Shown here piece after piece: positions 10,079 through 14,426 of a stretch of 64,000 nt of DNA. Both the position numbers and the translations under genes were made by a program. The stretch covers positions 1 to 64,000 of the forward strand of contig QCWI01000016.1 of assembly GCA_003149635.1 (NCBI GenBank), given 5' to 3'. The DNA is from Fluviicola sp. XM-24bin1 (GTDB lineage Bacteria > Bacteroidota > Bacteroidia > Flavobacteriales_D > Crocinitomicaceae). Below the pieces are notes generated by a model. It was given only the letters and a program-made list of their open reading frames with translations. It was not told the DNA's origin and searched no databases. Position 1 is the first letter of the stretch. Every line of letters begins with the position of its first letter.

Positions 10079-11068
10079 TCAAAGCAAGCGCTTTGCTCGG
10101 TTAGCGATTTCATTTTTGAGCGATTCCGGCTGCATGACGCGGATTTCGCCCCCGAAACTTAAAATTTCACGAATCAATTCTTCGGTGATGGAAACGTTCA
10201 ATTGAAACACAAAGTGATCTTCATTAATCTCTTTGATCTTCTGCGAAGGATGAATGGGCAAGCTATCCAAATACTTCGCTGCAATTATGCCTACTTCTAA
10301 AAGTACCTTTTCGGGTAATGAATTACCACTTGTGATACCAACGGCATGCTTGAAATAGTTATCGGGATCGAAATCGATGGGTTTGCTTGATTTTTCCTGA
10401 CTTACTTCCAAATCTTCAATGCGATCCAAAGCATAGGTGATATAATCCTGCTTGCTATCATCGAATGAAATCAAATACCAACGATTTCGATATTGCTTCA
10501 AAAGTAAGGGTAAGACTTTCCGTGGCTTTAACTCACCGGTGACGAAACTTGCGTAATCAAAATGAACAAAATTCTGCGTTTTGATCGCTTCCAAAAGCGG
10601 CGGAAGAAATTCATTTCCTCCATCAGCAACGGCACTCTCAAATTGAATGAACTCGCGAGCATCTTCGTCCTGAGAAAAGGCAACGTGATCCACAATTTTA
10701 TCAATCGCACTTCCGAACTGGCGAAACAATTCCACGTTTTTGAATTGCATCAACGTTTTCGCTGCAAAAGCAATTGCTTCCATATCGTTTTCCGTAAGCG
10801 GAATATCATTCATGGTGAAGTCCGGATCTTCGTAATAATACCCTTTCTCGCGTTTGCTGTATTTGATGGGCGCGTCGTGTTCTTCGCGCATCGCAAACAT
10901 GTCTTTTTCTATGGTAGAATTACAAATATGACCTCCGCCTGTGCTTCCGTACAATTCCTCTTCACAAGCTTCTCTTAACTCTTGTTTCGATGGAAAGGGT
11001 TTGTACTTATTGCGGATGCACCGATCAATTATCCGGTAGCGAATCAGTGCGTTTTTAATGTGAGGCAT
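10079..11068 (-). CDS. WYL-domain transcriptional regulator
   Basis: A 329-residue regulator of the YafY/WYL type. An N-terminal winged-helix region (residues 1-75; IIDRCIRNKYKPFPSKQELREAC...STIEKDMFAMREE, the pattern that binds DNA) is followed by a middle segment and a WYL domain (about 150-225) with FDYASFVTGELKPRKVLPLLLKQYRNRWYLISFD. A C-terminal WCX-like region ends the protein. WYL domains sense nucleotides or nucleic acids in characterised cases; the ligand here is unknown. The gene starts 3 bases after the preceding minus-strand gene, so the two share a transcript and possibly a function. Confidence 0.85.
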   Translation of the reverse strand: MPHIKNALIRYRIIDRCIRNKYKPFPSKQELREACEEELYGSTGGGHICNSTIEKDMFAMREEHDAPIKYSKREKGYYYEDPDFTMNDIPLTENDMEAIAFAAKTLMQFKNVELFRQFGSAIDKIVDHVAFSQDEDAREFIQFESAVADGGNEFLPPLLEAIKTQNFVHFDYASFVTGELKPRKVLPLLLKQYRNRWYLISFDDSKQDYITYALDRIEDLEVSQEKSSKPIDFDPDNYFKHAVGITSGNSLPEKVLLEVGIIAAKYLDSLPIHPSQKIKEINEDHFVFQLNVSITEELIREILSFGGEIRVMQPESLKNEIANRAKRLL

Positions 11069-11071
11069 AGA

Positions 11072-12487
11072 TCAGGAAACAGTCTCTGTTTTCTCGTATC
11101 CAAAGAGCTCGTAGAACTTAATCGCCTTCACTACTTCTTCAGGAACATCTTCCTCCCAAATCGCAGATTTCGCCTTGATTTTAGAAAGAACATCATCCGA
11201 CATGATATGCAACAATTTCGGATTGTACGATTCAATCGGAGCCAATTTGTTGTTCGCTCGCATGTAGTCTAGAAGACCTCGCAGATTCTCTGGAATGCTG
11301 AAGTTATCCAAATCGTAGATTTCTCCGGTTTCCACGTTGTTCGCAGGATAGACATACATCTTCACCGCATGACCAAATCCACGCCCGAAGGCTTCCAAAA
11401 GTCCGCCTGGAAGATTGTCGTAATAGCGTTCATCGAAGATGGTTTGCAAGTTGTAGATCCCTACAATTACGCCCATTTGATATCCTCTTGCAATGGTCGA
11501 TAGGTAATCCACCATTTTGTAGTGTTTGAGGTAATTGGAAATCATCACGGTATAACCGAGCGTTCCCAAAAGCTCCGCACGATCGACGAAATCTTTATCG
11601 GAAATTTTACCATCGGCTGTCAAATCCTTCAAGGTCAATTCGAATACCACACGCAGATTATCTTCGTTGATTCCTTCCTTGAGGAATTGGGATTTCCCAC
11701 GCTCAATCATGTCGATATGTACCTTCGTCACCGGACGGAATCGACCGCGCATCAACAAGATGTTCTTTTTGTACAGCGCCGTAGCTGGCTGAAGAACGTT
11801 TCCGCTCAAATCGAACATCGTTGCATCGGTAATACCTCGCTTCACAAGGTTTAGAGCGATGATTCTATTGTCTACATCTTCAAAATCAGGGCCGGAAACA
11901 CGCAACATATCCACCTCCATGCGCTCGCGTGGAAGTCGGTGCATTAAGCTTTCCAAAAACTTGGAAAGATCATCGTTGTGAAAGTAACATGCGTGCACCA
12001 AGTTTACACCCAAGATACCTAGAGCATCTTGCTGCGCCTTATTGCTGTTGTCGTGCATTTTGACGTGCAAGATTACATCGTTCGGTTCTCCTTCAGGATC
12101 AAGCTGAAAACGCATTCCTACCCATCCTTGTCCTTGATTTGTTTTATGATAATTGAGTGACTCAACCGTATTACAAAAGGCAAAGAATCGTGATTCTTCA
12201 AACTTCTTCGGGAGTCGACCTTTGAGGTTCTCATATTCCGTACCGAGCATTGTAATCAAACGCTCCTCACAAACGTAGCGCTTCGCGTCTCCGTACATGG
12301 AATCCGATACTTTCATATCGTACGCCGAAATCGTGTAGGCAATTGTTCCTGAACTACCTCCGGCTTTAAAGAAATTCGCGGCAACTTCCTGCCCTGCCCC
12401 AATCTCTGCAAAACATCCGTAAACATCAGATGTTAAGTTGATTTTAAGTGCTTTCTCTTCTGTTGTGAGTCTTCTTTCGTCTATCAT
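11072..12487 (-). CDS. conserved Bacteroidota protein of unknown function, paired with WYL regulator
   Basis: A 471-residue, apparently cytoplasmic protein (no signal peptide or membrane helix). Recognisable conserved-looking blocks include VYGCFAEIGAGQEVAANFFKAGG near residue 25, GWVGMRFQLDPEGEPNDVILHVKMHD near 130, LGVNLVHACYFH near 165, RGRFRPVTKVHIDM near 250 and ELLGTLGYTVMISNYLKHY near 305. I recall relatives in many flavobacteria carrying inconsistent names (TonB-dependent receptor, nucleotide adenylyltransferase), none supported by the sequence: there is no beta-barrel signature and no HxGH nucleotidyltransferase motif. It is co-transcribed with the WYL regulator 3 bases downstream. 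Function is unknown. Confidence 0.6.
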   Translation of the reverse strand: MIDERRLTTEEKALKINLTSDVYGCFAEIGAGQEVAANFFKAGGSSGTIAYTISAYDMKVSDSMYGDAKRYVCEERLITMLGTEYENLKGRLPKKFEESRFFAFCNTVESLNYHKTNQGQGWVGMRFQLDPEGEPNDVILHVKMHDNSNKAQQDALGILGVNLVHACYFHNDDLSKFLESLMHRLPRERMEVDMLRVSGPDFEDVDNRIIALNLVKRGITDATMFDLSGNVLQPATALYKKNILLMRGRFRPVTKVHIDMIERGKSQFLKEGINEDNLRVVFELTLKDLTADGKISDKDFVDRAELLGTLGYTVMISNYLKHYKMVDYLSTIARGYQMGVIVGIYNLQTIFDERYYDNLPGGLLEAFGRGFGHAVKMYVYPANNVETGEIYDLDNFSIPENLRGLLDYMRANNKLAPIESYNPKLLHIMSDDVLSKIKAKSAIWEEDVPEEVVKAIKFYELFGYEKTETVS

Positions 12488-12524: not shown

Positions 12525-13601
12525 CTATTGAGGCTCTTGAAAATCTGGATTATTGATAAACTCGTAATCCGTCATGGTTTCCAGAAATGCCTTCACTAAA
12601 TCCCTTTGTTGTTGATCCAGTTGAACCCCACCTTGACTCGCAAATTCAATGAGAGGATCAAGCGTCGGACTCGTTTGGATGTTGAACGAATAGTGAAGCA
12701 ACACCTCATCTAGAGTTTGAAAACGCCCGTCGTGCATGTAAGGCCCAGAAAGTGCAATATTTCGTAACGTTGGCACTTTGAATTTACCGGCATCGTTCAT
12801 GTCTCCTGTGACATCAGCTCTCCCCATATCTGTAAACGTCGCATCCAGCCCGTTATTGCTGAATTTCGACACGCGCATCAACGGTCCATTATGGCAATGA
12901 AAACAGTCTGCTCCGTTCAAACTCTGGAACAAATCGTATCCAGCTACTGCTTCAGGTATTGAATTGTAAATTGCCATTTCTTCTGCTGATACAGGAATGC
13001 CATTAAAGACCTTGTAGATAATGTCAAAATTGGAATTCCCTGAAATCATAGTACGCAAAAACTGTGCAATTGCTTTCGCTGCCGTGAATTTGGTGATGCC
13101 TTCGTCGCCATAAGCGCGATAGAACATATTGCGATATTCGACATCCTGAGAAATTTCAGCAATGGCATTCGACCAATCTTCGTGCATTTCAATTGGATTT
13201 ACAACAGGCTCCAAAACTAGGTCTTCCAAGGTCTTGGCACGTCCATCCCAAAAGTAGAAGGAATCCCAACCCAAGTTGATTAAAGCCATGGCATTTCGGG
13301 TTCCCACTGAACCATCGATGCCCGTAGAGAATTGATTTGGATCTGAAAATGCAGCTTGCGGTGCATGACATGTTCCGCATGACATGGTGTTGTCGCCGCT
13401 CAATTTCTTCTCGTAAAACAACTTTCTTCCCAGAGCAACGCCTTCCACCGTCATCGGATTATCCTCCGGAATAGGCATATCTGGGAAATGCGAAGGAATT
13501 TTCAATTCGTAAGGCGTCGGCTCGTAAACTACATTATCTTTTTTACAAGCGATAACCACTGCAAAGACGATAAAAAGTATAGAAATAAGGATGTACTTCA
13601 T
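12525..13601 (-). CDS. di-haem cytochrome c peroxidase/MauG-family lipoprotein (MbnH-like)
   Basis: A 358-residue di-haem protein exported as a lipoprotein (signal ends VVIAC, Cys19). Two haem c sites are visible: CGTCH (residues 75-79) and CFHCH (233-237); a conserved PTLRNIALSGPYMHDGRF segment near 277-294 supplies an expected axial ligand region. This family ranges from H2O2-reducing peroxidases to MauG-type enzymes that oxidise a partner protein. The gene starts 4 bases after the end of an MbnP-like gene, the partner arrangement known for MbnH, which oxidises a tryptophan of MbnP to kynurenine for copper binding. Peroxidase is the default call; MbnH-like is inferred from the neighbour. 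Confidence 0.85.
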   Translation of the reverse strand: MKYILISILFIVFAVVIACKKDNVVYEPTPYELKIPSHFPDMPIPEDNPMTVEGVALGRKLFYEKKLSGDNTMSCGTCHAPQAAFSDPNQFSTGIDGSVGTRNAMALINLGWDSFYFWDGRAKTLEDLVLEPVVNPIEMHEDWSNAIAEISQDVEYRNMFYRAYGDEGITKFTAAKAIAQFLRTMISGNSNFDIIYKVFNGIPVSAEEMAIYNSIPEAVAGYDLFQSLNGADCFHCHNGPLMRVSKFSNNGLDATFTDMGRADVTGDMNDAGKFKVPTLRNIALSGPYMHDGRFQTLDEVLLHYSFNIQTSPTLDPLIEFASQGGVQLDQQQRDLVKAFLETMTDYEFINNPDFQEPQ

Positions 13602-13605
13602 AAGT

Positions 13606-14358
13606 CTAAGGCATTAGTGCTTCTTTAAAATTCTCCATCACTTTGGTCGTCAAAGCTTCTTGACCTGGAGCCGAATGTGTGGAGCTTTCAAATTGCAAAT
13701 CAATCGTGTGAAGTGCAGATTGCAGGAATTCACTCACGTTCAGTTCCATGGATAATTGATGGCGATTGCTTCCGACACTCGTCCAAGTTAGATTGGAAAA
13801 GTCAACCGTTTGCAGGTTTTCATTCTTTCCCGCATGCAGGACAAAACTGTGATCGAAGAGATCGTTGCCGTCTGGAATAGTATCTACCACTCCCATAACA
13901 CTCACGAAAATGTATCCAGGATTCCAATCCCAGTGCATGTCATTCGCGTTCTGACTGTTCAGCCAGCTATCATTCGGAAATGCCGTTGGATCGCTATTGT
14001 TATTTGCAGGGCCTACGCCGAGGTTTGCAGTGAATGAAGAAAAATTAGAAGCAACTCCCGGCCCGTCATACAATAACGTTCCTCTTTCGCTGTAATCGAA
14101 AAGCATGGCATCTGTCATTTGAACGGCACCATTTTTAACATCTTCCAAGTAAAAACGAATGTCTGTGAATTTCACCTGATGACCTTCAACTGTCGTGTAA
14201 GGAGTATTCAGCACCAAATCAGCACCGTTGAATACAGGCTGTACGTCAATTCTAAGCGTATCTTCCACTGGAGGATCTGGCGGCGGTGGATCTTCTTTGC
14301 AACTTACTGAAGAAAGCAAAACGAACCCAATTAAACCTACTACATAAATCTTCTTCAT
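13606..14358 (-). CDS. MbnP-like lipoprotein, putative copper-binding partner of the di-haem enzyme
   Basis: A 250-residue lipoprotein; the ATG at 14358 gives a signal peptide ending SSVSC (Cys20), while the upstream extension to 14388 adds only non-signal residues. A proline-rich linker (PPPPDPPVED) precedes a beta-sandwich domain with FTDIRFYLEDV, DGPGV and the aromatic DMHWDWNPGYIFV block characteristic of MbnP-like proteins. Tryptophans in that block or elsewhere are candidates for kynurenine formation by the adjacent MauG-type enzyme. It is the first gene of the two-gene operon. The copper role is known for methanotroph MbnP and is inferred here. Confidence 0.75.
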   Translation of the reverse strand: MKKIYVVGLIGFVLLSSVSCKEDPPPPDPPVEDTLRIDVQPVFNGADLVLNTPYTTVEGHQVKFTDIRFYLEDVKNGAVQMTDAMLFDYSERGTLLYDGPGVASNFSSFTANLGVGPANNNSDPTAFPNDSWLNSQNANDMHWDWNPGYIFVSVMGVVDTIPDGNDLFDHSFVLHAGKNENLQTVDFSNLTWTSVGSNRHQLSMELNVSEFLQSALHTIDLQFESSTHSAPGQEALTTKVMENFKEALMP

Positions 14359-14371: not shown

Positions 14372-14426
14372 GCGAAATACAGCGGCAATTAAAAGCGTGG
14401 AACCGTCATATTTCTTGTTATTATAC

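Follow-up and report, generated by a model that had tools for sequence, protein, structure and literature searches.

When the genes of a small lipoprotein and a di-haem enzyme lie side by side in a genome of the Crocinitomicaceae, do they encode a copper protein of the MbnP type together with the oxidase that modifies it, and do they constitute a copper-handling system of their own? The pair is located on contig C16 of Fluviicola sp. XM-24bin1 (3.63 Mb in 19 contigs), within the window, the whole stretch of 64,000 nucleotides that was analysed. On the basis of the letters alone, the original prediction had described a lipoprotein with the aromatic block DMHWDWNPGY, followed 4 bases later by a di-haem lipoprotein with the motifs CGTCH and CFHCH. 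All of these elements are present (Table 1), the 4 bases separating the stop codon of MbnP from the ATG of the downstream MbnH, and they do not reflect chance, as the lipoprotein matches Pfam PF20243 MbnP (72.6 bits, E=5.3e-20, above the curated cut-off of 27) and the enzyme PF03150 CCP_MauG (E=1.1e-53). As read from its TTG start, the open reading frame of the lipoprotein is longer and reaches position 14388. Comparison with the nearest orthologue (L013) by the Nei-Gojobori method gave a pN of 0.137 and a pS of 0.722 for MbnP, and a pN of 0.113 and a pS of 0.738 for MbnH; since pN is well below pS in both cases, both are constrained genes.

Table 1. Features of the MbnP/MbnH locus in the window and of the second set of the same genome
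Feature	Position	Strand	Remark
MbnP-family lipoprotein, 250 aa	13606-14358	minus	ATG at 14358
MbnH/MauG-type di-haem lipoprotein, 358 aa	12525-13601	minus	PF03150, TIGR04039 and 6e1c matches
Cys20 of MbnP lipoprotein, predicted lipidated	14299-14301	minus	mature start C-K-E-D-P
Block DMHWDWNPGY with Met141, Trp143 (predicted Kyn) and Trp145	13912-13941	minus	conservation, alignment
Met155 (ATG)	13894-13896	minus	Glu in 63/66, Asp in 2, Met only in window
His175, predicted copper ligand	13834-13836	minus	aligns with WMVHLG of MbnP
Cys19 of enzyme, predicted lipidated	13545-13547	minus	mature start C-K-K-D
Haem-binding motif 1, CGTCH	13365-13379	minus	C75, C78, H79 in 62/62 aligned
Trp118	13248-13250	minus	Trp in 55/62 aligned enzymes
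Haem-binding motif 2, CFHCH	12891-12905	minus	C233, C236, H237 in 62/62 aligned
Tyr304, aligned with MauG Tyr	12690-12692	minus	Tyr in 59/62, Phe in 3
471-aa protein	11072-12487		no Pfam/NCBIfam match at E<=0.01
471-aa protein and following WYL-domain regulator	10079-12487
Second set: HYC_CC_PP, HMA chaperone, two multicopper-oxidase-like proteins, two T9SS-tagged MbnPs, MbnH	3325-10092 of L009, contig C1

Family and fold of the lipoprotein

The HMM comparison proposed along with the original prediction gave a divided answer. While PF20243 was matched above its cut-off, the lipoprotein reached only 17.5 bits with TIGR04052, an equivalog model for MbnP_like_WxW of the four-Cys type (cut-off 140), and the enzyme likewise remained below the cut-off of TIGR04039. 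The only cysteine of the mature lipoprotein is the lipid anchor, and the four-Cys motif, which is mentioned in the PDB name of 7l6g, the MbnP of Methylosinus trichosporium, is missing. Judged by its sequence, the window pair belongs to a divergent subfamily in Bacteroidota that lacks the four cysteines.

Structure prediction, the other computational check that had been proposed, came out in favour of the assignment. The AlphaFold2 model, calculated from 50 sequences (the window, 24 of 33 close relatives, 23 of 30 phylum loci and two paralogues), has a mean pLDDT of 94.8. A Foldseek search at E<=0.001 yields six matches, one to each chain of 7l6g (E 3.9e-07), with modest TM-scores of 0.43-0.52 and an r.m.s.d. 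of 6.4-6.7. Superposition of the model and 7l6g with VIA-align yields a Z-score of 15.7 and an r.m.s.d. of 3.0 across 196 residues, compared with a Z-score of 3.9 for the runner-up entry. Structures of MopE and CorA do not occur among the fold matches listed, an absence that excludes nothing. A profile of the 50 sequences, including the window, matches the MbnP of the Methylocystis parvus methanobactin operon with a probability of 97.2 and an E-value of 4.3e-11, and the alignment superposes the M-x-W-x-W motif and the later histidine common to both proteins, DMHWDWNPGY being placed on MAWNWQ of the methanobactin-operon MbnP. Overall identity of the window protein to two methanobactin-operon MbnPs is 15% and 17%. 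A single-sequence search of the PDB with the small lipoprotein found no match at E<=1, and 7l6g was reached via a methanobactin-operon MbnP sequence as well as via the fold search; plasmid records contained no match to the lipoprotein either.

The di-haem enzyme and its pairing with MbnP

The best NCBIfam model for the enzyme is TIGR04039 (MbnH) with 233 bits, short of the cut-off of 362.85, which was passed by any match in only three of the 38 Bacteroidota genomes searched. In the PDB, the best match by sequence is 6e1c (E=7.1e-45), titled 'di-heme enzyme', which we take to be MbnH of Methylosinus trichosporium. Together with Pfam, the profile comparison and the fold match to 7l6g, this match supports the MbnP/MbnH assignment that had been made from the letters. 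The enzyme combines two CxxCH motifs with Trp118, the conserved tryptophan between the haems of this superfamily, and with Tyr304, which aligns with the tyrosine of MauG, the axial haem ligand Tyr294 in the Paracoccus enzyme. It thus resembles MauG in belonging to the di-haem superfamily and in carrying a tyrosine at the MauG position, and differs from it in that the second-best NCBIfam model, TIGR03791 mauG, is matched with 150.5 bits at a cut-off of 443.85.

In a tree of MbnH sequences the window enzyme groups with 46 other MbnP-adjacent enzymes (support 100/99), and this group is separate from MauG and from the MbnH of methanobactin operons; owing to long branches, the deep order of the tree is unsure, and no functional conclusion is drawn from it. 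The Crocinitomicaceae branch also contains L019 and L031, two metagenome-assembled genomes titled Chitinophaga pinensis, and a record titled Glaciecola amylolytica (L041, CP034120.1) contains a Fluviicola-type locus. These three are probably mislabelled or contaminated records.

Of 148 genomes sampled across the phylum, 39 contain members of the MbnP family, and 38 of these were used to count pairs. In these, an MbnH-model match lies next downstream on the same strand for 53 of 54 MbnP places, the lone unpaired place being the single match below the cut-off. Within the 60 kin genomes, the window lipoprotein is matched in 53, its own included (E<=0.001, a count that includes weak and paralogous matches). 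An intact MbnH lies immediately downstream in 28 of the 33 close relatives; in the remaining five the contig stops short (four cases) or the reading frame is interrupted (one case). The pair is thus retained in the Crocinitomicaceae.

The counts read differently from the side of the enzyme, as only 51 of the 114 MbnH-model matches in the 38 genomes adjoin an MbnP, indicating that the enzyme family has members or uses without MbnP. One might therefore regard the window enzyme as a plain peroxidase that detoxifies H2O2, the lipoprotein being a co-transcribed binding protein that is left unmodified. Such an enzyme would be in keeping with matches to the bacterial di-haem peroxidases 9qdt and 1iqc in the PDB. 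In MauG a tyrosine serves as haem ligand, whereas classical peroxidases have a methionine at the same place, and Tyr304 accordingly favours a putative substrate oxidase over a plain peroxidase, without proving it. A MauG-type tyrosine is, however, also found in two further di-haem proteins of the genome, on contigs C10 (L012) and C7 (L011), while MbnP matches are confined to contigs C1 and C16; the tyrosine is therefore not specific to MbnP partners. Given that the best PDB match is the presumed MbnH 6e1c, that nearly every MbnP place has its enzyme and that the target tryptophan of the partner is invariant, we consider a plain peroxidase improbable.

Two di-haem peroxidase genes elsewhere in the genome, on contig C14 at about 89,100-90,100 (L010) and on contig C7 at about 230,400-231,300 (L011), appear to be interrupted by in-frame stops or shifts.

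Residues of the putative copper site

The lipoprotein displays the pattern of MbnP proteins, a W-x-W motif with a methionine two positions before it and a histidine downstream. Conservation was evaluated in frame and without a motif filter for 66 sequences: the window protein with its two paralogues from the genome, 33 relatives taken from genome contigs, and 30 phylum loci. As the latter are the higher-scoring 30 of 55 MbnP places, lower-scoring types of about 330 residues are under-represented. Trp143 and Trp145 are each kept in all 66 sequences, His175 in 65 and Met141 in 64. Among 31 of the 33 close relatives, the two cut by contig ends being excluded, residues 139-151 show 99.3% identity to the window, as compared with 45% for residues 21-250. 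By cut-off and by the MbnH encoded downstream, the other PF20243 MbnPs of Bacteroidota are of the same kind as the window family, which differs from them by His142: this residue precedes the target tryptophan in 34 of 34 family orthologues, is replaced by another residue in 28 of 30 phylum loci, and recurs in several copies of about 330 residues.

One residue near the block departs from this picture. Met155 takes the place of a near-invariant glutamate, present in each of the 33 other family members and in every one of the 30 phylum loci; the codon is ATG in the window and GAA in the two nearest relatives, so that all three bases are changed. The copper site of the window protein may therefore be altered, and the lipoprotein, though the pair works as MbnP and MbnH, might in this species bind another metal or hold copper in another mode, or have lost its site. 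Loss of site residues does occur in the family, in several T9SS-type copies of about 330 residues that carry arginine or serine at the histidine position. In the window protein, however, Met141, Trp143, Trp145 and His175 are all kept and both genes are under purifying constraint, which leaves an altered or lost site only a slim chance. That the enzyme might instead derive another cofactor from tryptophan, namely a quinone or a hydroxylated tryptophan as formed by MauG, and so equip the lipoprotein for a redox function, could be read from the sub-threshold mauG match and the two tryptophans of the block, but is very improbable in view of the MbnP fold of the partner and since no methylamine dehydrogenase was recognised when the window's reading frames of at least 150 aa were read.

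With a probability of roughly three in four, the window pair belongs to the MbnP/MbnH family in the functional sense, a kynurenine-dependent Cu(I) lipoprotein with a dedicated oxidase, where modification and copper binding would be those of the Methylosinus proteins by analogy. This assessment draws on PF20243, the profile match, the fold, the site residues, the pairing, the haem motifs with Tyr304 and the neighbours of the second set described below. Weighing against it are the NCBIfam scores below cut-off, the non-specific tyrosine, the 51 of 114 enzyme matches adjoining an MbnP, Met155 and the lack of a recognised copper neighbour. In Methylosinus, MbnH reportedly turns the first tryptophan of W-x-W into kynurenine, and Cu(I) is said to be bound by this kynurenine, a histidine, a methionine and solvent. 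Enzymes of the MbnH/MauG type oxidise their partner via a bis-Fe(IV) state. As read from their sequences, both window proteins would be exported and lipid-anchored in the envelope, where by analogy the enzyme, passing through a high-valent di-haem state, would oxidise Trp143 of its partner to kynurenine; Kyn143 could then form a mononuclear Cu(I) site together with Met141, His175 and solvent, and the modified lipoprotein might hold or deliver envelope copper without methanobactin. That its purpose is acquisition or delivery of copper, and not storage or detoxification, is an unproven guess. Should the chemistry prove true for this lineage, copper sites built on a protein-derived kynurenine would be routine in the envelope, far from methanobactin producers.

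Compared with MbnP and MbnH of Methylosinus trichosporium OB3b (7l6g, 6e1c), the window pair shares the MbnP fold and the di-haem partner encoded next downstream, and differs in the predicted lipid anchoring, the missing four-Cys motif, Met155 and the fact that no mbnB was found. The original prediction had stressed that no methanobactin synthesis gene was in view, and for mbnB this extends to the whole genome, in which TIGR04159 has no match; TIGR04160 (mbnC) is not matched either, but control genomes are equally without a match to it. Such pairs usually stand outside methanobactin clusters and were described far beyond methanobactin producers already in 2013 (PMC3621798). Since they are known and common there, the pair represents a well-conserved ordinary member and no new system. 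In the literature searched, a collection that omits the main MbnP papers, nothing was found on an MbnP that comes from Bacteroidota or is linked to the T9SS.

Envelope location, neighbourhood and the second set

By inspection, both proteins begin with signal-peptide-like stretches ending in a cysteine (...SSVSC|KED in MbnP, ...VVIAC|KKD in the enzyme), in agreement with the two lipid anchors originally proposed, and both are thus predicted to be exported and lipid-anchored in the envelope. The C-K-E-D start of MbnP resembles the K-(D/E)2 export signal of Capnocytophaga lipoproteins, but has the lysine at +2, whereas in that organism lysine at +3 is reported to be optimal for surface export and +2 less efficient (PMC5080379); the resemblance serves as a lead only. 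By script, K-(D/E)2 fits 13 of 33 MbnP N-termini, the window included, and none of 29 MbnH N-termini; 34 MbnPs were tried, one of them without a usable cysteine, and the script misplaced the cysteine in at least L027 and L037.

With MbnP on the surface and its enzyme in the periplasm, the arrangement would be similar to that of CorA and CorB, which is only a lead. MopE/SACCP of Methylococcus capsulatus and CorA/CorB of Methylomicrobium album combine a surface Cu(I)-kynurenine protein with a neighbouring gene of a di-haem peroxidase-like protein, and the copper site of CorA consists of two histidines and kynurenine (PMC3912023); the window protein was set against them by description only.

Judged from the sizes and order of reading frames, close relatives widely keep the arrangement of a divergent helicase-like gene, MbnP, MbnH, 471-aa protein and WYL-type regulator. 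The gene of the 471-aa protein occurs in 27 of the 148 phylum genomes, 11 of which are without a PF20243 match; by position, G000 and G041, two genomes from the family of the window, are the only ones in which it adjoins MbnP directly. As it is found in genomes without MbnP, the neighbourhood looks inherited and not functional; the 471-aa protein was rejected as a third component because it occurs independently of MbnP, and the conserved neighbours, including the WYL regulator, seem unrelated to the pair. No copper gene was recognised around the pair among reading frames of at least 80 aa.

The genetic copper link missing at the window pair is provided by the second set of the genome, where MbnPs tagged for the type 9 secretion system (T9SS) lie beside genes of a chaperone with a heavy-metal-binding domain (HMA) and of multicopper-oxidase-like proteins (Table 1). 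The set also includes a separate T9SS-tagged protein; model-based tests for T9SS sorting domains covered the two MbnP copies of this genome only. In 12 kin stretches of 12-16 kb around MbnPs of about 330 residues, hand-picked from lower-scoring matches and not random, both oxidase-like proteins were matched within eight (in L102 at a distance of about 5 kb), and four contained matches to the HMA and HYC proteins. Genes of the copper type are absent from 12 other loci, drawn from the wider phylum and including one of the window type, save for a short weak match in L082. The second set lends indirect support to a role in copper handling; it is the only genomic copper tie found in the lineage and belongs to a paralogous set. 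One could go further and imagine two kynurenine-copper systems in the Crocinitomicaceae, each delivering its copper protein to the cell exterior along a different route: the window lipoprotein would be flipped by its K-(D/E)2-like signal after modification by the oxidase, which lacks the signal and would be left in the periplasm, and the T9SS would secrete an MbnP with two multicopper-oxidase-like partners. This scheme is speculative and, on balance, unlikely.

By eye, the second tagged MbnP (L009, 8045-9022) has an arginine in place of the site histidine, as do the MbnPs of about 330 residues in L094, L095 and L102, while that of L103 has a serine. All these copies retain M-x-W-x-W and, judging from the replaced ligand, may be unable to bind copper.
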